From Gammaproteobacteria bacterium (GTDB lineage: Bacteria; Pseudomonadota; Gammaproteobacteria; SZUA-229), in the NCBI GenBank assembly GCA_029882355.1, contig JAOUKV010000001.1, positions 1 through 64,000 on the forward strand: a stretch of DNA of 64,000 bases, read 5' to 3'. The stretch's first letter is position 1. Each line of letters opens with the position of its first letter. The translations under genes and the position numbers were made by a program. Under the pieces are notes generated by a model that worked only from the letters and a program-made list of their open reading frames with translations, made no database searches and was not told the origin of the DNA. This document shows, piece by piece, positions 8,081 through 63,967 of this stretch.

Positions 8081-9649
8081 TCATTCCCACTCAATCGTTG
8101 CTGGCGGCTTGCCTGAAATATCGTAAGTAACGCGAGATATACCATCAACCTCGTTGATGATACGCGTAGAAACATGACCAAGAAAATCATAAGGCAGGTG
8201 TGCCCAACGCGCTGTCATAAAGTCGATAGTTTCAACTGCACGGATTGCCACCACATAATCATAGCGACGACCATCACCCATCACGCCCACTGACTTAACC
8301 GGAAGAAACACAGTGAATGCCTGACTCACTTTATCGTACAAATCATTCTTATAAAGCTCTTCGATAAAAATGTGATCAGCCAGGCGCAATAAATCCGCAT
8401 ATTCTTTTTTCACCTCACCAAGAATACGAACACCCAGGCCCGGACCGGGGAACGGATGACGGTAAACCATTTCAGAAGGCAGACCTAATTCAACACCAAT
8501 TTTACGCACTTCATCTTTAAACAGTTCGCGTAAGGGCTCGACCAGTTTCAAACGCATACCTTCGGGCAGACCACCGACATTGTGATGCGATTTAATCAGA
8601 TGTGAATTTTTACTACCGGCCGATTCAATCACGTCAGGATAAATCGTACCCTGCGCCAGCCAGTTTGCATTGGTTAATTTGTTCGATTCTTCTTCAAAAA
8701 TTTCAACGAAAACTCGACCGATAATTTTTCGTTTCTGTTCAGGATCATTAACGCCCTTCAACTCATCAAGAAAACGCTGTTCCGCATCAACACGAATCAC
8801 TTTAACGCCCATGTTTTGAGCGAACAAAGCCATTACCTGGTCGCCTTCATGGTGTCGCAACAAACCGTTATCGACAAACACACAGGTTAACTGCTTGCCA
8901 ATCGCCTTATGCAACATAGCAGCGACCACGGATGAATCAACACCACCCGATAAACCTAAAACGACTTCATCGCTACCGACCTGTTCACGGATACGATGAA
9001 TGTTATCTTCAACAATGTTGTCCGATGTCCACAAACCAGCACAACCACAAATATCGTGCACAAAGCGCTCGATGATGCGTTGCCCCTGTTTGGTATGTGT
9101 CACCTCAGGGTGAAACTGCACACCATAAAAACCGCGCTCCTCATTAGCCATACCGGCTAAGGGTGCATTGTCGCTACTGGCGATACAGACAAAACCTTCC
9201 GGCAACTCGTCTACTTTGTCGCCGTGAGACATCCACACATCCAGAAAGGCGTGACCTTCTTCATTGACGTGATCTTCTATGTCTTTAAATAATTTACTGT
9301 GACCACGCGCGCGCACCTGGGCAAAACCAAATTCACGATGCGTGGATGCAACCACTTTGCCGCCCAATTGCGCCGCCATGGTTTGCATGCCGTAACAAAT
9401 ACCCAGCACCGGCACATCCATATTGAAAACAAGATCTGGTGCAACTAGTGTATCTTCCGCCGTCACCGACTCCGGACCACCAGAAATAATAATACCGCTG
9501 GGTTTGAAATCGCGTATTTCCTGATCATCAATTGTAGTGTGGTGAATTTCACAATAAACACCGGCTTCACGAACGCGTCGCGCAATCAGCTGGGTGTACT
9601 GTGAACCAAAATCGAGTATGAGTATCCGGTCGGAATGAATGTCTTGCAT
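8081..9649 (-). CDS. guaA: GMP synthase (glutamine-hydrolysing)
   Basis: GuaA aminates XMP to GMP using glutamine and ATP, the last step of guanine nucleotide synthesis. The 522-residue product has a class I glutamine amidotransferase domain at about 1-200 (nucleophile cysteine in GICYGMQ, His-Glu pair in FHPEVTH), an ATP pyrophosphatase domain with the PP-loop LSGGVDSSV near 230, and the C-terminal dimerisation domain ending in IEWE. The length is normal. It follows guaB on the same strand but is separated from it by a strong terminator-like hairpin, so it may have its own promoter or depend on read-through. Confidence 0.98.
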
Positions 9650-9680
9650 AATTTTCTTAATAATAAAAAACTAAAAAATA

Positions 9681-9727
9681 AAAAAGGCGCAGAGAAAACA
9701 ACTCAACGTGTATTTCTTTGCGCCTTT
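9681..9727 (-). terminator. Rho-independent terminator after guaB
   Basis: A long stem pairs the stretch around 9681-9697 with 9713-9727 (core GGCGCA/TGCGCC plus flanking A/T pairs). On the minus strand it runs into a T-rich tract (9676-9685 complement). It stands between guaB and guaA, so it should limit read-through from guaB into guaA. Confidence 0.7.
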
Positions 9728-9748
9728 GCGTATTTATGTTTCGCTCTT

Positions 9749-11209
9749 TTACGAAGAACGGTAATTAGGCGCTTCCTTGGTAATGGTCACATCATGTACA
9801 TGCGACTCTGACATACCGGCACCCGAGATGCGCACAAATTTTGGCTTGCTGCGCATTTCATCAATCGAAGTGCAACCGACATAACCCATACTTGAGCGCA
9901 GACCACCTATCATTTGATGAACGATGGCACTCAGCGGGCCTTTATAAGCAACACGACCTTCAATACCTTCTGGCACCAATTTATCACTGCCTGCTGAACT
10001 ATCCTGGAAGTAGCGATCACTAGAACCTTTCTTCATTGCACCCAATGAACCCATGCCGCGATAAGCTTTGTAGGAACGCCCCTGGTACAAAATAACTTCG
10101 CCCGGTGCCTCTTCAGTCCCGGCGAGCATACCACCAACCATAATGCAGTAACCACCGGCAGCAATTGCTTTTGCCATATCACCAGAGTAACGAATACCAC
10201 CATCAGCAATCAAAGGAATACCTGTACCTTCGAGTGCCGCAGCCACATTTGAAATTGCGGTAATTTGCGGCACACCGACACCAGCAACAATACGTGTAGT
10301 ACAAATCGAACCAGGACCAATGCCCACTTTGACGCCATCAGCACCGGCATCCATCAGCGCTTTAGCGGCATCACCTGTAGCGATATTGCCGCCAATCACC
10401 TGCACAGCAGGAAAATTCTTCTTGGTCCATGCCACTCGGTCAAGCACGGCCTGTGAATGACCGTGTGCAGTATCAACCACAATGACATCAACACCAGCAT
10501 TAGCCAGTAATTCAATACGTTCTTCTGTATCGGCACCAGTACCAACGGCTGCGCCCACTCTCAAACGACCTTGGCTGTCTTTACTTGCATTAGGGTAATC
10601 GGTAGATTTTTGAATATCTTTAACCGTGATCATGCCACGAAGTTTAAAGTCATCGTTCACCACCAGTACACGTTCGATACGGTGTTTGTGTAACAGAGCC
10701 AATACTTCTTCTTTTGGTGCGCCTTCTTTCACCGTCACTAGTTTTTCTTTCGGTGTCATCACAGCTGAAACGGGCTGGTCCAGATTAATTTCAAAACGCA
10801 CATCACGACTGGTCACCAGACCAACCAGATTATCACCTTGCATCACTGGCACACCCGAAATTTTATAGTGCTCACGCAACTCGATAACTTCACGAACAGA
10901 GGTATCCGGTGAAACTTTCACGGGATCAGTAATCACACCACTTTCATATTTTTTAACACGATTAACTTCAGCAGCCTGTTCCTCTGGCGACATGTTTTTA
11001 TGGATAATGCCAAGGCCGCCTTCCTGTGCTAATGCAATCGATAAACGCGCTTCAGTCACGGTGTCCATGGCTGCAGATAGCAGAGGGATATTCAATTCGA
11101 TGTCGCGAGTCACCTTGGTGGTCAGATTGACATCTTTGGGCATAACTATGGAATGGTCGGGAACCAGTAAAACGTCGTCAAAAGTGAGGGCTTCCTCAAT
11201 TATTCTCAT
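9749..11209 (-). CDS. guaB: IMP dehydrogenase
   Basis: GuaB oxidises IMP to XMP with NAD+, the committed step to guanine nucleotides. From the chosen start the product has 486 residues and begins [15 protein letters not shown], as in known GuaB. It has the TIM barrel, two inserted CBS domains at about 90-205, the catalytic cysteine in the [11 protein letters not shown] loop and the KGSSDRY flap region. The start at 11209 is supported by AGGAA just upstream and by a consensus-like promoter at 11250-11278, which lies inside the longer reading frame that could begin at 11281. It is divergent from xseA. Confidence 0.98.
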
Positions 11210-13334: not shown

Positions 13335-14219
13335 ATGAATAAACAAATCTACCGCGGCCGCTTTGCCCCCTCACCCACCGGCGATTTACACCTCGGCACC
13401 CTGCTCGCCGCCGTCGGTAGTTATCTGCAGGCCAGAAGCCAACATGGCGAATGGCTAATGCGTATTGAGGATGTTGATACCACCCGCCGCGTTAAAGGCG
13501 CGGCTGATGCCCTACTACGTGCGCTGGAAGGTTTTGGTTTTGAATGGGATGGTGAAGTGGTTTACCAATCACAACGCACCGATCTGTATGAATCTGCACT
13601 GGAAATACTTTCACAAAAAGACCAAATCTACCCCTGCACCTGTTCGCGCAAACAACTGGCTGATGAAGGCCCGGTCTACGTAGGCCACTGTCGCCAGCTT
13701 CGCTTACCGCTAGCCGAAGAACATGCTTTGCGCCTGCGCGTCGAAGACCAGCTTATTGGTTTTGATGATCAGGTCATCGGCTATTACCAGCAAACACTCG
13801 CCAGCGAATGTGGTGACTTTGTCATCAAACGCAAAGACGGCCTGTTCGCCTATCAATTAGCGGTGGTCGTTGATGATGCCAAACAGGGCATTAACGAAGT
13901 GGTACGTGGTATTGATCTGCTTGATTCCACGCCACGACAAATCTATCTGCAACAACAACTTGGCTACGCACAGCCCGATTACCTGCACCTACCCCTGCTA
14001 GTTGATGAGCACGGCCACAAACTCGGAAAATCTACCGGCGCGGCTGCACTCGATCTTTCACAACCCGTTTTTCACTTACATTCGGCACTTGAGCTGCTAG
14101 GGCAAAAACCGCCCGCAGAGCTCGCCAGAGACGACCTCAACCAACTCTGGTTATGGGCGGCTGAACACTGGAACATTGATCTTATACCTACACAAAGTCT
14201 AACCATCAATCAGAACTGA
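13335..14219 (+). CDS. gluQ: Glutamyl-Q tRNA(Asp) synthetase
   Basis: GluQ-RS attaches glutamate to queuosine 34 of tRNA-Asp. The 294-residue product is a truncated class I glutamyl-tRNA synthetase lacking the anticodon-binding domain. It has the HIGH-like region in RFAPSPTGDLHLGTL, a zinc site starting CTCSRKQ (about 98-122), and the KMSKS-like HKLGKSTG near 232. Length and position behind dksA are typical. The start is 17 bases after the dksA terminator, so it needs its own promoter or read-through. Confidence 0.95.
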   Translation: MNKQIYRGRFAPSPTGDLHLGTLLAAVGSYLQARSQHGEWLMRIEDVDTTRRVKGAADALLRALEGFGFEWDGEVVYQSQRTDLYESALEILSQKDQIYPCTCSRKQLADEGPVYVGHCRQLRLPLAEEHALRLRVEDQLIGFDDQVIGYYQQTLASECGDFVIKRKDGLFAYQLAVVVDDAKQGINEVVRGIDLLDSTPRQIYLQQQLGYAQPDYLHLPLLVDEHGHKLGKSTGAAALDLSQPVFHLHSALELLGQKPPAELARDDLNQLWLWAAEHWNIDLIPTQSLTINQN

Positions 14220-14226
14220 AACAGGC

Positions 14227-14256
14227 TTGCAGACATAGCTAGTGCCTGTGTATTAT
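14227..14256 (+). promoter_or_regulatory. Candidate acs promoter
   Basis: TTGCAG (14227-14232) and TATTAT (14251-14256) have an 18-base spacer and lie 38 bases upstream of the acs start, which has GAGGG as its ribosome-binding site (14284-14288). Motif-based assignment only. Confidence 0.45.
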
Positions 14257-14294
14257 CAATGGTCACTTAAGAATAAAAATGTAGAGGGAAAACC

Positions 14295-16259
14295 ATGTCC
14301 AGCAACGATATTAATTCCACACTCGTCGAAAATCGTCTCTTTCCACCCAGCGAAGAATTCGTCGCCAATGCAAGAATTAAACCGGCCGATTTTACCGCTC
14401 TACACAAACAGGCAGAAGACGATTATGAAGGCTTCTGGGCCAATCAGGCGAAACAGAATATCGACTGGCACAAACCTTTTACTACGGTTCTAGATGACAG
14501 CAATGCTCCACATTATCAATGGTTTACCGATGGCGAGCTGAATCTTTCCTATAACTGCATCGACAAGCATCTGGCCACGCAAGCCGACAAAACCGCGATT
14601 ATTTTTGAAGGTGAAAAAGGCGATACCCGCCACATTTCCTATCAACAATTACACGATGACGTCTGCCAGTTTGCCAATGGCATGAAAGCGCGCGGCATCA
14701 AAAAAGGTGACCGCGTAATTATCTATATGCCAATGACGGCAGAGGCAGTCATCGCCATGCAGGCCTGTGCACGTATCGGCGCGATTCACTCCGTGGTGTT
14801 TGGTGGTTTCTCAGCCGACTCCCTGCGCGACCGCATAGATGATGCGGGCGCGGTGATGTTGATCACCGCTGATGGCGGCCATCGTGGTGGAAAAATCGTC
14901 GAGCTGAAAGAGGCGGCTGACAAATCACTGGCAAAAGCTGGTAGCACCATCGAGAATGTCATCGTACTGAAACGCACTGGCCACGACATCAATATGCAAC
15001 AGGGCCGTGACCACTGGTGGCACGATATCATCGAAGACCAGAGCACAGAATGCGAACCAGAGTGGGTGAACGCCACACATCCTCTATTTCTGCTTTACAC
15101 CTCCGGCTCCACCGGCAAACCCAAAGGCATCCAGCACTCCACCGCTGGTTATCTACTCAATGCCATCGTTACCAATTTATGGGTGTTCGATTTACAGGAT
15201 AAAGACATCTTCTGGTGCACCGCCGATGTCGGCTGGATCACCGGCCACACCTATGTTGCCTTCGGCCCGCTGGCCGCCGGTTCAACCGTGGTCATTTATG
15301 AAGGCGCACCGGTGGTGCCCGATGCCGGTCGTTTCTGGAAAATATGTGAAGAACTCAAAGTCACCATTTTCTACACCGCACCCACCGCGATACGCGCACT
15401 AATGAAATTCGGTGATGAGTTCCCGAACAAATATGACCTGTCATCGATCCGCCTGCTAGGCACTGTCGGTGAACCGATCAACCCCGAAGCATGGATGTGG
15501 TACCACAAGGTCATCGGCAAAGAACGCTGCCCCATCGTCGATACCTGGTGGCAGACCGAAACTGGTGCCAACATGATCGCGCCCATCCCCGGCGCAGTCA
15601 GCACCAAACCCGGCTCCTGCACCCTGCCCCTGCCCGGCATCATCGCCGATGTCGTCAACGAACAGGGCGAGTCCATCACCGAAGCCAACAAAGGCGGTTA
15701 TCTGGTCATCAGAAAACCTTTCCCCTCGATGTTACAAACGGTCTGGGGCGATGACCAACGCTACGTCGATACCTACTTCCCCAAATTCGACGGCAAATAC
15801 TACCTGGCCGGAGACAGCGCCCGAAGAGATGCCGACGGCTACTTCTGGATCATGGGAAGAATCGATGATGTGGTAAACATTTCCGGCCATCGCCTCGGCA
15901 CCATGGAGGTTGAATCCGCATTAGTTGCTCACGAACGCGTAGTAGAAGCTGCAGTAGTCAGTCGCCCGCACGAAGTAAAAGGCGAAGCCATTGTTGCCTT
16001 CGTTATTTGTCAGGGTGAAAGACCCGTCGGTGAAGAAGCCGAAAAAATGGTTCAGGAATTACGCGCATGGGTGGGTGAGCAAATTGGAGCGATAGCGAAA
16101 CCAGATGATATTCGTTTTGCGGATGGTTTACCGAAGACACGTTCTGGGAAGATTATGCGTAGATTGCTGAGGAATATTGCACGGGGTGAGGAGATTACGC
16201 AGGATATTTCTACTTTGGAGAATGAGGGGGTTGTTAAGCAGCTTCAAGGCAAAGAGTAA
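14295..16259 (+). CDS. acs: Acetyl-CoA synthetase
   Basis: Acs activates acetate to acetyl-CoA through acetyl-AMP. The 654-residue product has the Acs N-terminal domain, the AMP-binding signature [11 protein letters not shown] near 265, the [10 protein letters not shown] substrate-pocket segment and the C-terminal lid with the [11 protein letters not shown] motif, whose lysine is the known reversible acetylation site in this family. Length is normal. The gene ends 19 bases before a perfect palindromic repeat. It allows acetate use and scavenging. The tryptophan in TWWQTETG is typical of acetate rather than longer acyl substrates. Confidence 0.97.
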
Positions 16260-57213: not shown

Positions 57214-58488
57214 TTAGTGTGAGGGATCAACTACCTTTGACGCTTTTGATACTGTGGAGGATAGAGTGATTAGATAAATCAGGAAGACAGACAATTCCGG
57301 CGCCCGCAAATTCCACGTTGCGGTTAAACCAAACACCAGATAGGCCATAATCACTATAAGCCCTCCTAAATTAGCTGACGTCAACTTTTCACAGGAAGTA
57401 TGGTAAAAAACTCGGAACGGTTGAATTATGAGCGCAAAGAGCAGTATCAAAAATCCAACTAAACCCGTCGTCGCCAGAGCCTGAAAAAAAATATTATGTG
57501 CGCTTGCATGAACCTCAACTTGTTCATAAATACCTTGCGACTGCCTTAACTCAATCTCCTGATCGAAATCGCCCAACCCCGTACCGATCACTGGGTGCTC
57601 CTGCCATACATCCAGCGCAATCTGCCACATTGCCAATCTAGTACCTACAGATGAGCCAAATTTTTCACCGTTAACAAAAGACTCGACTTCCTGAGTGGCC
57701 TGATTAATCCGATCTTCTATTATATTTCTAACCGGCGAAACACCTATAACCACTACAACCAGAAGCAGTACTGATATAGCAAGCTTGAGCTTTAATTTAT
57801 TGTGCTTGGCCATCACATAAAGCAATAAGGCGCCACAGAAAGGTAAGGCAATCCAGGCTCCCCTTGCTTGTGACAAAAGGGATGCATACAAGGCACAAAC
57901 AATGGAAAAAGCCACAATTACCTTGATTATTGGTCGTGTTTTCCACGTGACCAGAACTGCTAACAAGAACACAACACTGAGCATAGCCGCATCGCCAAAG
58001 GCAATATGATGATAACTTCCAGATGCTGGAAATCCAGGTCTCTCAGAAATACTAATGAGTGCAAAGGTTAAATATAGTGGCCCAGAGGTGATTGCACCTG
58101 CAACAAGGTATTTGAATAATTGCATATTGCCTCTGGTTAAAAGCAAATAGACCGGCACAATCAGTAGAAATCGAATGTACCTGCCCATGTGTTTAACGTA
58201 TTCATTTTCATCGCTGACATTGTAATAAGTGATTAATCCTGAAAGCGCATACAAAGCCAGTCCAAAAAGAAGTAACTGTTCGTTTCGCGTAAGGCCTCGC
58301 CACAATTCAGGCCATTTATGAATATAAAATAAGCAGGCAATAAATAAAATCGCCAACGAGGTACTGGCTACGGAGGACACAGCACAACCTGAGGCCGCTG
58401 CTGCAAATATACAAAGACCAATAAGAACCTCTAACGGTCTTGATAACATTTCAGCAAACCAATGCCTGACAGCTAAATGTTGCAGCAA
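57214..58488 (-). CDS. O-antigen ligase family protein (WaaL-like)
   Basis: This 424-residue polytopic membrane protein of the Wzy_C/O-antigen ligase superfamily has about ten hydrophobic segments. It has the QARGAW motif with R209, a large periplasmic loop (about 255-325), the RLAMWQIALDVWQEHPVIGTGLGDF segment and H321 in ASAHNIFFQALATTG, the residues usually important in WaaL. The family either ligates undecaprenyl-linked O-polysaccharide to lipid A-core or polymerises repeat units. Which one applies cannot be told from sequence. It is the last gene of the surface-polysaccharide cluster. Confidence 0.88.
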   Translation of the reverse strand: MLQHLAVRHWFAEMLSRPLEVLIGLCIFAAAASGCAVSSVASTSLAILFIACLFYIHKWPELWRGLTRNEQLLLFGLALYALSGLITYYNVSDENEYVKHMGRYIRFLLIVPVYLLLTRGNMQLFKYLVAGAITSGPLYLTFALISISERPGFPASGSYHHIAFGDAAMLSVVFLLAVLVTWKTRPIIKVIVAFSIVCALYASLLSQARGAWIALPFCGALLLYVMAKHNKLKLKLAISVLLLVVVVIGVSPVRNIIEDRINQATQEVESFVNGEKFGSSVGTRLAMWQIALDVWQEHPVIGTGLGDFDQEIELRQSQGIYEQVEVHASAHNIFFQALATTGLVGFLILLFALIIQPFRVFYHTSCEKLTSANLGGLIVIMAYLVFGLTATWNLRAPELSVFLIYLITLSSTVSKASKVVDPSH

Positions 58489-58602: not shown

Positions 58603-60024
58603 TTAATAGGCGTTTTTATGAATGAGCCCACGAAAAACAGTCATGATGATGATTTTCATATCCAGCCACAATGACCAGTTTTCAATATAAAAAAGATCGT
58701 GCTCAATGCGTGTATGTAGACAGGTATTGCCCCGCCAGCCATGCACCTGTGCCCAGCCGGTCACACCCGCCTTAACCAGGTGTTTTTTCATATAGTGAGG
58801 AATCTCATCTTTATATTTTTCAACGAACATAGGGCGCTCTGGCCGAGGACCGATCAATGACATTTCACCTTTTAGCACGTTAAATAATTGCGGCAACTCA
58901 TCCAGGCTGGTTTTACGTAAAAAAGAGCCAAATTTTGTCGCACGCTTATCTGTTTCATTTGACCAGACAGGGCCCGTTTTATTTTCTGCATCTATCGGCA
59001 TAGAGCGAAACTTGAACATAGTAAACACCTGCTCATTCCAACCCATGCGGCTCTGACGGTACAAAACAGGGCCAGGTGAACTTAGCCTAACACCCACCGC
59101 AATAAATAACATAACAGGGCTCGCCAAGATCAATAACAAAAGAGCTAACACATAATCTTCGATCGTTTTAACAACTTGATTCATTCCATCTATAGCAGAA
59201 TAAGAAATATTCACTACGGGTACACCAGCAATTTCAGACAAGGAGTGATGCATTAATTGATATTCAAAAATATCCGGTACATATCGAATCTCCGTGGATG
59301 AACCATCTAAAGCAGTTATAACTTCACGAATCGTTTTTTCTTCACTATGTGGTAAAGATATCCAGACCTGATCAACATCCGCTTCATCAACATGCTCACG
59401 CAACTCTGTAACGTCTGAAATGAATTTTTTGCTTTTTAACCAGGAGGGAAGTTTATCGGAGCGCGGTCCAAATAACGCCGAAATTTCCAGTCCAAACCAG
59501 GTTGAACGACGAAGCCGATCAGCCACAACCGCCGCCTGCTCACCTGTACCAACAATGACAATATGGCGATGATTAAACCCATTAGAACGTAGCCAGCTCA
59601 GTACAATACGTAATATTACTCGCGAACTGACCAAGGAGGCCCATGTAGCCACGAACCATAAGCCCATCCACGAGCGTGAATAGTCAGCACCAGACTTGGT
59701 AACGAATGCCGCTCCAGCCAATAACAGACCAACCAAAAGCCACGCCATGGTCAGATGTTTTATTTCTGATAGCGTAGAAGAACCTCGCCAAACGCGATAA
59801 GTGGTAAACAGAGGAAAAATCAGACCTGCAAGAATGACCGCGACCAGAATAACATCAAGATAATGCCCAGGAAGACCCTGAACACCTAAAACCGTATAGG
59901 TACCATAAGCAGCTGAAAAATAATAAGACAGCACACCACAGATAAGCACAATTGATAAATCAATCACTCGCAGAATAAAATTAAGAACATTTGCATGCCC
60001 TTTGAGAAACCCTCTTTTGATCAT
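58603..60024 (-). CDS. Undecaprenyl-phosphate sugar-1-phosphate transferase (WcaJ/WbaP family)
   Basis: This 473-residue polyprenyl glycosylphosphotransferase starts glycan assembly on undecaprenyl phosphate, often with glucose- or galactose-1-phosphate. It has an N-terminal membrane region of four helices (about 10-125), a CoA-binding-like Rossmann domain (about 145-260), one more membrane helix near 280, and the C-terminal transferase domain with FKFRSMPIDAE, TSLDELPQLFNVLKGEMSLIGPRPERP and the HDLFYIENWSLWLDMKI end. This is the typical full-length WcaJ architecture. It is upstream of the ligase gene on the same strand. Confidence 0.92.
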   Translation of the reverse strand: MIKRGFLKGHANVLNFILRVIDLSIVLICGVLSYYFSAAYGTYTVLGVQGLPGHYLDVILVAVILAGLIFPLFTTYRVWRGSSTLSEIKHLTMAWLLVGLLLAGAAFVTKSGADYSRSWMGLWFVATWASLVSSRVILRIVLSWLRSNGFNHRHIVIVGTGEQAAVVADRLRRSTWFGLEISALFGPRSDKLPSWLKSKKFISDVTELREHVDEADVDQVWISLPHSEEKTIREVITALDGSSTEIRYVPDIFEYQLMHHSLSEIAGVPVVNISYSAIDGMNQVVKTIEDYVLALLLLILASPVMLFIAVGVRLSSPGPVLYRQSRMGWNEQVFTMFKFRSMPIDAENKTGPVWSNETDKRATKFGSFLRKTSLDELPQLFNVLKGEMSLIGPRPERPMFVEKYKDEIPHYMKKHLVKAGVTGWAQVHGWRGNTCLHTRIEHDLFYIENWSLWLDMKIIIMTVFRGLIHKNAY

Positions 60025-60183: not shown

Positions 60184-60792
60184 TTAAAGCACATCAAAAT
60201 CAAAAATACCTGTAACCTCATCCAAGGTAACTCTAGACGGTCTAACTAAAAGACGCTTTTTTGCCTTCAATAATAAAGGTAGATCATCATGATGATCTGT
60301 AATTACACATTCTAAAATGACATCTTTCCCATAGTAGGCACTTACCGACCGCCACTTTTCTTCACCAATATTCTCTTTCCATAGAGAATTAAAAACTGAG
60401 CCGGATGAAAATACGTGTGAAAAATCAAACTTTTTAGCCAAAACATCTACATAACATGCTGGTGCCGCCGTACACAGCACTACAGACACCTGTGTATTTT
60501 CATATTTACGCATCTCCTTAAGCACATCACTATTAGTGAAACAATAAAGGAATTGACAAAACCATTTGATAAAAAAACACGGTATATTTTCTGTAACACT
60601 TAAAATTTCACGCTTCATTTGAACACGGTTTGATTTATGAAAAAATCGGAGAAGGACTACTTTTATAAATTTTATTAGCGCAAACCAACGAAAAGAAATA
60701 AATAGAAACAGAAACGAAAACACCAACCAATAGCGAAAGGAATTTAATGAGCATAAACACCCATCCAAATCAACAACGACAATTTTGTTCAT
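60184..60792 (-). CDS. HAD-superfamily phosphatase
   Basis: The 202-residue product has the HAD motifs in order: I, D8-L-D10-G-C; II, T108 in VVLCTAAP; III, a lysine near 139-146; IV, DHHDD at 166-170. An N-terminal insert (about 20-50) is very hydrophobic and basic, suggesting membrane contact. Its start overlaps the stop of the phosphoribosyltransferase gene by four bases (ATGA), so the two are translationally coupled. In the polysaccharide setting, removal of the 5-phosphate from a transferred phosphoribosyl group is a good hypothesis (inference). SerB-like activity is the alternative. The gene is AT-rich compared with the core. Confidence 0.82.
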   Translation of the reverse strand: MNKIVVVDLDGCLCSLNSFRYWLVFSFLFLFISFRWFALIKFIKVVLLRFFHKSNRVQMKREILSVTENIPCFFIKWFCQFLYCFTNSDVLKEMRKYENTQVSVVLCTAAPACYVDVLAKKFDFSHVFSSGSVFNSLWKENIGEEKWRSVSAYYGKDVILECVITDHHDDLPLLLKAKKRLLVRPSRVTLDEVTGIFDFDVL

Positions 60793-61382
60793 GATTTATA
60801 ATCACTAGACCATGGAAAACGCAATAAAACATTCTTATACAAACAAAAATCAGGGTATACCAAAGGCACATTCTTTGTAACAACCAGTACAGCGATTTTG
60901 TATTCAAGCAGCGGGTTAATTGCACAAAGCTCATCTAATAATATTTTTACTGTAGCACCTGAATCTATCGCATCGTCAATTATAATTATTCGACCAGATT
61001 CAAGATTAGCAAGATAATCAACCAACCTACTATCAAGACGAACATCTCTCTCAACATCATCAGATAGTTTCATTCTTAAAGTAACAATATAATGTTCAAC
61101 AATCCTAAGCCAATCCAAAATAAACCTTGGTAAAAATTTAAATAGAATTTTAATACTGCGAGTTTTTTTAGCTGCAGTTGCATATCTTGACGCACCTGCC
61201 TCAAAATATTCTAAATTACCACCCTGTTTTTCTAAGTAACCAAAGACTAGTTTTGCAACAGTCGCACCACCAGATCTAACCCCAATCAAAGCAGTAATAT
61301 CACCTGATTCAGCTAGTTTTACAGCAAGAGAATCACAGGCTTGTTCAAATTCAGATTTATTTAAGGTAATAACACTCATCAT
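60789..61382 (-). CDS. Phosphoribosyltransferase family protein
   Basis: From ATG 61382 the product has 197 residues. It is a type I PRTase: the pyrophosphate loop GVRSGGATVAK lies at 34-44 and the PRPP-binding motif IIIIDDAIDSGAT at 122-134, with the acidic pair D126-D127. A basic and hydrophobic insert (about 72-105) is unusual for purine salvage enzymes and would suit a membrane-bound acceptor. The C terminus ends FPWSSDYKS, like the tryptophan-containing end of purine PRTases. A TTG-started extension to 61412 is not believed. Between a glycosyltransferase and a coupled HAD phosphatase, it could transfer phosphoribose from PRPP to a glycan (inference). Confidence 0.82.
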   Translation of the reverse strand: MMSVITLNKSEFEQACDSLAVKLAESGDITALIGVRSGGATVAKLVFGYLEKQGGNLEYFEAGASRYATAAKKTRSIKILFKFLPRFILDWLRIVEHYIVTLRMKLSDDVERDVRLDSRLVDYLANLESGRIIIIDDAIDSGATVKILLDELCAINPLLEYKIAVLVVTKNVPLVYPDFCLYKNVLLRFPWSSDYKS

Positions 61383-61427
61383 CAACCAACGTAAAAAACA
61401 GGGAATAAGCAAAGATTAGCAGTCACT

Positions 61428-62282
61428 TTACGCCCTGGTGATTTTAAGTTTAAAATTTTCAAAAAACCGTACGTAGCAATATTTAAGAATAGAGTATGGC
61501 AAAAATCTCCAGTAATATTTTAAATGCATCTTCAACTCATTTAATGCTGACAGTCTTCTAGCCCAGCAGGGAGAGTTAGCCCTGTTTTTGGCCCAACCTC
61601 TACAGTGAAAAACTGGTGCAGATGGAATCATCATGATTTTTTTATTAAGCCGCGTCACCCTAAGAGATAATTCAATATCTTCCTTATACATAAAGTACGA
61701 CTCATTAAAAACATAGCCGTCTTTATCCAACAATTCTTGAATGATATCCCTGTGAATCAACATCAGAGCACCACAGGCCGCAGGTACATCATATGGCGGT
61801 AATTCTTTATTCAACACGGCGACACTATCACCTTGCGACACATCGAACCATCGCCCAAACCAGGTGTGGCTTATTCCCAAGCTATCGATCAAACCTGTTG
61901 GTTTATCTTTTTCAAAATCATAACCTAACAACGGCACGGTAAAAATACCAACATTACTATCTTGCGAGTCACCAATCACTTCAAGAACATTCTTTAACCA
62001 TGAATCAGGCAAAAAAACATCAGGGTTAATAAGAAGAAAATAGTCAGACTCAAACTCAAGACTACATTCAATACCAATATTATTGGCCGCGGAAAAACCA
62101 ATATTTTCACCTATATTTATAACTTCAGAATTATGAAAATCCTCAGCGTTAACAGTATTAGAGCTTGAATTAATTAAAAAAACTTTTTCACCAAGCTCAT
62201 CTATATGTCGATTGCTGAATTTTTTTATGTATTCATCGCTATTATGCGAGACATAAATTGAAACAACTGACAATGGACTCAC
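61428..62282 (-). CDS. Family 2 glycosyltransferase
   Basis: The product is a GT-A fold glycosyltransferase like rhamnosyltransferases (WbbL type), with a nucleotide-sugar domain (VVSIYVSHNSDEYI..., IGENIGFSAANNIGI near 70), the metal-site region LLINPDVFLP, and the late YFMYKEDIELSLRV acceptor/catalytic segment. The GTG at 62282 (284 residues) is chosen because GGGAGAGGA stands just before it; the ATG at 62303 has a weaker site. The donor sugar is not predictable. It is upstream of the PRTase gene with 45 bases between. Confidence 0.88.
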   Translation of the reverse strand: MSPLSVVSIYVSHNSDEYIKKFSNRHIDELGEKVFLINSSSNTVNAEDFHNSEVINIGENIGFSAANNIGIECSLEFESDYFLLINPDVFLPDSWLKNVLEVIGDSQDSNVGIFTVPLLGYDFEKDKPTGLIDSLGISHTWFGRWFDVSQGDSVAVLNKELPPYDVPAACGALMLIHRDIIQELLDKDGYVFNESYFMYKEDIELSLRVTRLNKKIMMIPSAPVFHCRGWAKNRANSPCWARRLSALNELKMHLKYYWRFLPYSILKYCYVRFFENFKLKITRA

Positions 62283-62541
62283 ACTATTTCCTCTCCCATA
62301 CATTCTTATAAAACTATTCGTCTACTTACGTCTATCATATCGGATCATTCAAAGCCAAAGCACAATACCAATATTCCATATAAAGCCGTTTTTTATGTAG
62401 ATCAGCAAGTATAGAACTAGACTCCACCAGGCATTCGAAAAGCCTCATTTTATTTATATGCAAATTAAGGGAGTAGCATCTACACCTTGTCAGAACACTT
62501 ACTTATCAGCAATAATTTATCGTACATGTGAAAGCTACACT

Positions 62542-62967
62542 TTAATATCTATTTTTATCATTCACAGTGTTGAATACAAACGAACGTGCCAGTATATACA
62601 TAAGCAATGTATAACTCACTGCAGCGGCAATCTGAGAAATTACTGGATGAAAGTGAAAATAAGTTAATGACAGATAAAGCACCAATAAATTAAATAAAAA
62701 TGAAATAACAAATGCAATAACATAGCGGACGCTTTCCGCAACAAAATGACCACTACTGCGAAAAACAAATTTCTTTGAAAGTACAAATCCCGATGTAAAC
62801 CCAACGGCATATCCTGTAACGTTTGAAACCACTGGTGAAAAACCCAGAGCCATCGCGGAGAAGATAACGACGAAGCCAAGAACAGTGTTTACTACACCAC
62901 TTCCCAAATATCGTGCGATATACGTAGCCTCACTCCAAAAATGAAATGCCCAGTTATTTTTTTTCAT
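62542..62967 (-). CDS. GtrA family membrane protein
   Basis: The 141-residue product has four membrane helices (about 18-38, 43-62, 78-100, 105-128) and the GtrA signatures RYLGSGVVNTVLGF and GYAVGFTSGFVLSKKFVFRSSG. GtrA-type proteins are thought to flip polyprenyl-linked sugars or aid their transfer in polysaccharide modification. It is separated by about 260 bases without a visible gene from the glycosyltransferase gene and follows the epimerase gene by 52 bases. Confidence 0.88.
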   Translation of the reverse strand: MKKNNWAFHFWSEATYIARYLGSGVVNTVLGFVVIFSAMALGFSPVVSNVTGYAVGFTSGFVLSKKFVFRSSGHFVAESVRYVIAFVISFLFNLLVLYLSLTYFHFHPVISQIAAAVSYTLLMYILARSFVFNTVNDKNRY

Positions 62968-63019: not shown

Positions 63020-63967
63020 TTATCTACTAGCGCGAACAAACACTGCCCTTTCTGCCGCCATCATCTGTGCGACACCCACAAGTAGACTTGTCCTTGATAT
63101 CTGCTTATTAATCGGCACAGTTATCGAATGAAACTGTATGCGTCGAGTATAAATGCTAGTCAGTTTGCTTGCACTAGAAACTATCCTTGGGCTGCGCCTG
63201 GTAATTCTTTTATAAATTGAAACAATTTCAGCAATGGTAGTAGGCCTTTCGGAAGCAATTATTTTTGTAAAAACCCCCTGCTTCCCATCTAATACACGCA
63301 ACGCAGCGACTATTGCAGAAGCTGCATCATCAGAGATGATGTAATCACGAATAGTGTCAAGTGGAACGTAAATCTGTACTGGTTTATTTCTCAATATACA
63401 ACGTGCCATTAGCGCAATAAGTCCCTGCTGTTTTCCAGTCGCCTGGCCAGGGCCGTATAATGTCGACATTCGTGCAAGAAGCGCAGTTACCCCACAATTA
63501 TTGACAGCAAAGGTATTTACCAAATTTTCCTGCTTAAGTTTTTCATGCGCATAAGCCGTTGTTGGTGCTACAGGTGTATTTTCAGTAATAATATCACCTG
63601 CCGCACCCGCATAGATAGCACCTGCTGAACTAGAAAAAGCAAGACAGCCTTTAGCAGCAACCAGATCCGGCTCGGATTCAACAAGCTTGAGCAGCGTCGA
63701 TAACGTTCGCGTTTCAACTGCAAGTTCCGCCTCGGTACTGCTCATGGTGCCCACACCAGCAGCCCAATAGATCTGCCACTTATTACCGACACCAACAAAG
63801 TCTGCATACGACTTAACTGCTATCTCTAACTGAACGCTAAGCTTAGTCTCGCTATCCCAGTGAAAACGCTCAGCTGGTTGAAACATACTGCTTCCACTAT
63901 GTTGCAATGCACGCTGCAACGCTGCCCCCAACAGACCGCTGCTTCCTATAATCCAGACAGCTGTCAT
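63020..63967 (-). CDS. NAD-dependent epimerase/dehydratase family protein
   Basis: This 315-residue extended short-chain dehydrogenase has the GxxGxxG nucleotide loop (G8-S-S-G-L-L-G14), a serine cluster S112-S114 and the YxxxK pair Y139 and K143. Such enzymes modify nucleotide sugars by epimerisation, dehydration or reduction. It is shorter and more divergent in the C-terminal substrate part than GalE or RfbB, and the substrate is unknown. It probably starts the visible part of the polysaccharide cluster, which continues to the right of the window. Confidence 0.85.
   Translation of the reverse strand: MTAVWIIGSSGLLGAALQRALQHSGSSMFQPAERFHWDSETKLSVQLEIAVKSYADFVGVGNKWQIYWAAGVGTMSSTEAELAVETRTLSTLLKLVESEPDLVAAKGCLAFSSSAGAIYAGAAGDIITENTPVAPTTAYAHEKLKQENLVNTFAVNNCGVTALLARMSTLYGPGQATGKQQGLIALMARCILRNKPVQIYVPLDTIRDYIISDDAASAIVAALRVLDGKQGVFTKIIASERPTTIAEIVSIYKRITRRSPRIVSSASKLTSIYTRRIQFHSITVPINKQISRTSLLVGVAQMMAAERAVFVRASR

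Follow-up and report, generated by a model that had tools for sequence, protein, structure and literature searches.

Two overlapping genes on the minus strand, at 60184-61382 of the window (the whole stretch of 64,000 nucleotides analysed here), encode a type I phosphoribosyltransferase (PRTase) and a HAD phosphatase, and together they are probably responsible for the PRPP-dependent O-ribosylation of a glycan acceptor followed by dephosphorylation. As far as can be judged from the sequences, the pair would act as a ribosyltransferase divided over two proteins, adding ribose in two steps to a glycan of the cell surface. A first-pass annotation of this DNA had suggested that the two genes fit a two-step ribofuranose route. 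Transfer of phosphoribose and then dephosphorylation is indeed the best reading of the pair, because the module is conserved, lies mostly among polysaccharide genes, has intact PRPP and HAD motifs and carries changed residues in the acceptor pocket; the suggestion is supported in part only, as the architecture is unlike that of the characterised fused PRT/phosphatase family and ribofuranose in the glycan is a prediction. Points against O-ribosylation are that fold and sequence of the transferase are nearest to 6-oxopurine PRTases, and that one of the pairs found, that of the alphaproteobacterial genome G470, lies outside any visible polysaccharide cluster.

The route by which ribofuranose enters bacterial glycans has been solved only recently. 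Two-step ribosylation from PRPP is established in Klebsiella pneumoniae O4/O7, Haemophilus influenzae type b (Hib) and Campylobacter jejuni (PMC11231755, PMC10299916, PMC12096443), lipid-linked ribofuranose is produced via a UbiA-type enzyme in Citrobacter youngae (PMC11127046), and ribofuranose clusters of the K13 type are described in Escherichia coli (PMC13171606). In surveys of ribofuranose addition, the marker was the PRP domain of fused enzymes (PMC11127046). A small, unfused pair with an HPRT-like transferase would be labelled as a salvage enzyme or as hypothetical proteins, and PRP-domain surveys could miss it. If the proposed role is true, ribose is predicted in uncharacterised glycans, and the transferase would represent a glycosyltransferase family of purine-enzyme ancestry and would provide a compact, soluble tool for the synthesis of ribosylated glycans.

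The overlapping gene pair and its conservation

The PRTase gene (60789-61382, minus strand) encodes a putative PRPP-dependent O-phosphoribosyl transferase of 197 aa, a length counted from the ATG at 61382; the start could also be the tandem ATG at 61379 or an upstream TTG at 61412. The HAD gene (60184-60792, minus strand) encodes a candidate phosphoribosyl-glycan phosphatase of 202 aa. Both proteins exceed the Pfam gathering cut-offs (Pribosyltran, PF00156, 2.9e-9; HAD, PF12710, 6.7e-10). The PRTase is translated first and the HAD protein second, and the ORF coordinates place the PRTase stop and the HAD start in a single ATGA at 60789-60792 (minus strand), confirming the four-base overlap reported in the first-pass annotation. 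The GC content of the pair is 0.34 versus 0.449 in the window, as would be expected of a mobile, variable segment.

PRTase and HAD form a real conserved unit. With UR115 and G831 taken as one, 11 loci in two classes, Gammaproteobacteria and Alphaproteobacteria, carry this overlapping pair, and therefore it is not a chance arrangement. Gene order is the same in 11/11 loci and the HAD gene always overlaps the end of the PRTase gene; the overlap of the ORFs amounts to 4-44 nt at the nine loci that were aligned, and at the other two the reading frames overlap as well. Within the host family the pair occurs, with an identical 4-base overlap, in G001, which belongs to the same genus as the host, and in G051 (locus L006), which belongs to another genus, and it was found in none of the remaining sampled genomes of that family. 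A tblastn search of plasmids returned one record, the alphaproteobacterial plasmid UR115 (L019), where the HAD gene is directly downstream, and profile searches detected the pair in more Alphaproteobacteria (G470, G754, G950, G1016 and G834). A later search added G1121 and G1124 (loci L077 and L078), neither of them used to build the profiles and both with an overlapping PRTase-HAD pair.

The divergence of the two proteins is correlated across loci (Mantel r 0.91, p 0.00025), also within the alphaproteobacterial set alone (r 0.74, p 0.0097). Strong HAD matches (2.6e-87 or better) were obtained in six of 284 alphaproteobacterial genomes, and these are the six that carry the PRTase; since they helped to build the HAD profile, the strength of their matches is expected. 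The remaining matches in the 284 genomes were at 3.6e-17 or worse, and no close HAD homologue without the PRTase was found among them. Remote single-sequence HAD matches in the Gammaproteobacteria G330, G223 and G290, which come without a PRTase, were judged to be general HAD-IB proteins, and a weak A1 match in G664 (9.1e-7) was likewise judged general. This linkage bears on the idea that the pathway is the same but phosphoribose stays on the glycan, with the HAD enzyme acting on another sugar phosphate. HAD-IB substrate ranges are broad and a substrate is not readable from sequence; however, no sampled genome was seen to have one of the two proteins without the other, their divergence is correlated, and we regard such a division of labour as very improbable.

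Polysaccharide genes adjoin the pair in 10 of the 11 loci. The flanking genes, partly called by reading sequences that resemble those scanned by domain, include O-antigen ligase/polymerase-like, pyruvyl transferase, acyltransferase, GT4, GT2 and flippase genes. In the exception, G470, the pair (L041 8463-10184) adjoins a DUF1003 gene and signalling genes, and no polysaccharide cluster is present within about 10 kb.

An arrangement such as that of G470 would suit an alternative in which the pair ribosylates a non-glycan small molecule, nucleoside-like or a secondary metabolite, made beside polysaccharide genes. A precedent is BtrL/BtrP, a separate PRTase and phosphatase that carry out the two-step O-ribosylation of neamine and are the ribose source of butirosin-type aminoglycosides. 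As described, BtrL/BtrP resemble the window pair in being separate PRTase and phosphatase genes, but the butirosin acceptor is an aminoglycoside and not a glycan. No secondary-metabolite genes were noticed in the inspected neighbourhoods, which against the 10/11 loci with polysaccharide genes leaves a small-molecule acceptor unlikely.

Motifs and relatives of the two proteins

In the HAD protein the motifs D8-x-D10, T108 (Ser in one member), K146 and D166/D170 are intact in all nine aligned members, and 9/9 match TIGR01490, identifying it as a HAD-IB protein. A single-sequence search of the PDB with the HAD protein gave no matches, and its AlphaFold model is poor (mean pLDDT 46.5).

The PRTase has a PRPP loop D136-D137-x-x-D140-S-G-x-T144, a PPi loop R-S-G-G at residues 36-39 and a C-terminal RFPWSxD. 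D136, D137, D140, G142 and T144 are invariant in the nine aligned PRTases, and the PPi loop is intact. PRPP should be available, because Prs is encoded in the genome. Changes are concerned with the acceptor side. In purine PRTases a Lys contacts the purine oxygen and an aromatic residue stacks. The family of the window enzyme shares the fold, the PRPP loop and a C-terminal FPW motif with archaeal and bacterial 6-oxopurine PRTases (1vdm, 4z1o) but differs from them in several features: Thr169 stands in 9/9 at the position of the purine-contact Lys, as aligned with the host's own HGPRT and XPRT-like protein; Leu186 stands in 9/9 at the position of the stacking aromatic, the host's two purine-type PRTases keeping both the Lys and the aromatic; Arg188 is invariant; an insert of about 45 residues, predicted with low confidence as helices, occupies residues 64-111; and a HAD gene is the partner.

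The nearest solved structures are nonetheless 6-oxopurine PRTases, both in a profile search of PDB sequences (1vdm, 1.7e-9) and in a comparison of the predicted fold with 1vdm (Z 13.2, rmsd 2.8 over 135 residues, for a low-confidence model with mean pLDDT 56); the Foldseek and VIA-align lists obtained with the same low-confidence model contain nucleotide PRTases and PyrR. CriT is missing from these lists, which, given the quality of the model, does not argue against a relationship with it. This proximity would favour a purine salvage PRTase and an unrelated HAD phosphatase caught together in a variable locus. Against NCBIfam equivalog models, however, the PRTase scores 20.9 bits or less, where the cut-offs are 115 or more, the purine-contact residues are replaced by invariant ones, the pairing with HAD is strict across classes, and the host genome already encodes an HGPRT along with another purine-type PRTase. 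In fact, HGPRT, XPRT-like, PyrR, PyrE, ComF-like and Prs proteins are encoded elsewhere in the host genome according to family matches, with a PurF-like protein recognised by sequence inspection, so salvage does not need the PRTase of the pair. A salvage role is accordingly the least probable of the alternatives that we considered.

Candidate family assignments were rejected as follows. Membership in the 6-oxopurine PRTases fails on the sub-cut-off scores and on the replacement of Lys and the aromatic residue; membership in ComF fails on TIGR00201 (12 bits, cut-off 233.55), and a distinct ComF-like protein (L075) is encoded elsewhere. The protein belongs to the soluble Pribosyltran family and is not a UbiA-type polyprenyl-phosphate phosphoribosyltransferase. 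The alternatives that the first-pass annotation had named, purine salvage, ComF and SerB, are thus not borne out as family memberships, though the nearest folds are those of 6-oxopurine PRTases. Elsewhere in the host, the product of L070 324-944 is a purine-type PRTase of 207 aa; its C-terminal motif is YPW, and it is under the NCBIfam cut-off for xanthine PRTase.

The surrounding O-polysaccharide cluster

All the genes next to the pair are on the minus strand. The three neighbours listed in the first-pass annotation were recovered: a GT2 glycosyltransferase (61428-62303; PF00535, 3.6e-5; a weak, rhamnosyltransferase-like match to TIGR01556, 34.5 bits, is below the cut-off), an initiating sugar transferase, namely a WcaJ-type undecaprenyl-phosphate glucose phosphotransferase (58603-60024; NCBIfam TIGR03023, 511 bits, cut-off 410.75), and an O-antigen ligase/polymerase of the Wzy_C family (57214-58488; PF04932, 1.6e-26). 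Moreover, a GtrA-like flippase (62542-62967; PF04138, 6e-19) and an NAD-dependent sugar epimerase/dehydratase family protein (63020-63967; PF01370, 5.8e-22) are encoded. Beyond the window the cluster goes on with genes for a GtrB-like GT2, a methyltransferase, YfhO, a WbsX/RgpF protein, wzt (with Wzt_C), wzm and the rml genes, the latter named by reading their sequences. Overall this is an O-polysaccharide locus of the ABC-transporter type that includes a supply of dTDP-rhamnose, and the identity of the acceptor does not follow from this context alone.

The GtrA-like gene, together with contig C17 63964-64944 and 65809-68202, accounts for a GtrA-like flippase, a GtrB-like GT2 and YfhO. These genes are probably a three-component extracytoplasmic glycosylation set within a Gram-negative ABC-transporter O-polysaccharide cluster; Gram-positives are where the YfhO-type GT-C is best known. 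In the WbsX/RgpF protein, which has 1532 aa (L012 7223-11821; contig C17 68223-72821), a sulfotransferase-like start is joined to an RgpF-like region and to a glycosyltransferase domain of the WbsX family.

The GtrA-, GtrB- and YfhO-like genes also suggest a lipid-linked donor, in which the PRTase would load phosphoribose on undecaprenyl phosphate, the HAD enzyme would trim it, and a flippase (for example the GtrA-like protein at 62542-62967) and a GT-C (YfhO) would complete the extracytoplasmic addition of the pentofuranose in the manner of C. youngae. The three-component pentofuranose system of C. youngae ORF15 (PMC11127046) resembles the window pair in its PRPP donor, presumed here, and in its HAD phosphatase, and the surroundings of the window pair also happen to contain GtrA and YfhO, genes of extracytoplasmic glycosylation. 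The HAD-UbiA fusion family NF006088 is matched by 5/9 HAD members, and a profile comparison of the HAD family with the HAD domain of NF006088 gave 96.8%; these matches are, however, weaker than those to the general HAD-IB model TIGR01490, and the host's own genome gave no match for a HAD-UbiA fusion at 1e-20. Known polyprenyl-phosphate ribosyl transferases, including that of C. youngae, are UbiA-fold, integral membrane, lipid-directed proteins (PMC11127046), whereas the window enzyme is a soluble type I PRTase, and the GtrB-like GT2 would supply a lipid-linked sugar of its own. Moreover, the G001 cluster holds the pair without YfhO, and no GtrA-like gene was seen there, so that the latter is not conserved with the pair in G001 and a lipid-linked-donor role becomes less likely. 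Taken with its other difficulties, we consider this role improbable and prefer direct transfer of phosphoribose to a glycan.

Comparison with known ribosyltransferases and proposed mechanism

Ribofuranosyltransferases of the gPRT-PRP type include those of K. pneumoniae O4/O7 and Thermobacillus composti (Kelly 2022, as described in PMC11127046, PMC11231755 and PMC10299916). As in that family, a presumably PRPP-using PRTase-type transferase and a HAD phosphatase with intact motifs are encoded in a polysaccharide locus. CriT/CrpP of Hib Bcs3 (PMC10299916) and Cj1432 of C. jejuni (PMC12096443) would also share with the window pair the two-step chemistry proposed here, besides a PRTase-like core and a HAD domain. 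Differences are evident in several respects. The known enzymes are single polypeptides of two domains, with a larger transferase domain and a split DD motif, and in Bcs3 and Cj1432 the phosphatase comes before the transferase, whereas here the genes are separate and overlapping with the transferase first in 11/11 loci; the Hib transferase and phosphatase remain able to form a polymerase when they are on separate chains (PMC10299916). CriT has about 445 aa and three helical bundles (PMC10299916), whereas the window PRTase has 197 aa, roughly half as many as CriT or Cj1432C, and a single insert, predicted to be helical. In CriT, D680 and E818 stand in place of the DD motif and are on different loops (PMC10299916), whereas the window family keeps the adjacent D136-D137 of a canonical DDxxDSGxT. 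No gPRT-PRP sequence (Bcs3, T. composti) was among the profile matches in the PDB sequence file, which may not contain every such chain.

Being unfused, in reverse order, with a compact HPRT-like transferase and a canonical adjacent DD motif, the pair, on its predicted proteins, cannot be filed within the characterised gPRT-PRP family. It is quite possible, if still tentative, that O-glycan ribosyl transfer was taken up by an enzyme resembling purine PRTases, in a recruitment separate from that of the gPRT/CriT lineage, giving a compact two-gene ribofuranose route and a new glycosyltransferase family in at least two proteobacterial classes.

In the proposed mechanism the PRTase would bind PRPP-Mg and, at the cytoplasmic side, attach 5-phospho-D-ribofuranose to a lipid-linked sugar through one of its hydroxyls, with release of PPi; a beta linkage would be expected if the enzyme behaves like the inverting type I PRTases. 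The HAD enzyme would then strip the 5-phosphate, leaving a ribofuranose residue that could be extended or left as a branch. We infer the donor, the glycan nature of the acceptor, the order of the steps and the anomeric configuration, and we also infer the presence of ribofuranose in the glycan of the host.

More speculatively, the acceptor used in the host lineage might be situated near the reducing end that WcaJ primes. In pair-less relatives (G021, G014 and G019 were those read) a GT2-like gene is directly upstream of wcaJ, which would agree with a role of the pair in place of an early glycosyltransferase, gene order being weak evidence. No wcaJ was noticed near the alphaproteobacterial pairs. 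Between the host and G001 (L014 and L015 of G001), two species of one genus, the glycosyltransferases of the cluster have been replaced, and the rml genes, the pair, wcaJ and a Wzy_C-like gene are kept, with the pair still immediately upstream of wcaJ. In G051 the HAD gene and wcaJ are separated by an inserted ATPase-like gene on the opposite strand (L006 1203-2471). G014 (L054) has a full wcaJ (9231-10670) and, about 3 kb downstream, a second, partial copy (13826-14326), which is surrounded by ATPase-like, transposase-like and toxin-antitoxin-like genes.
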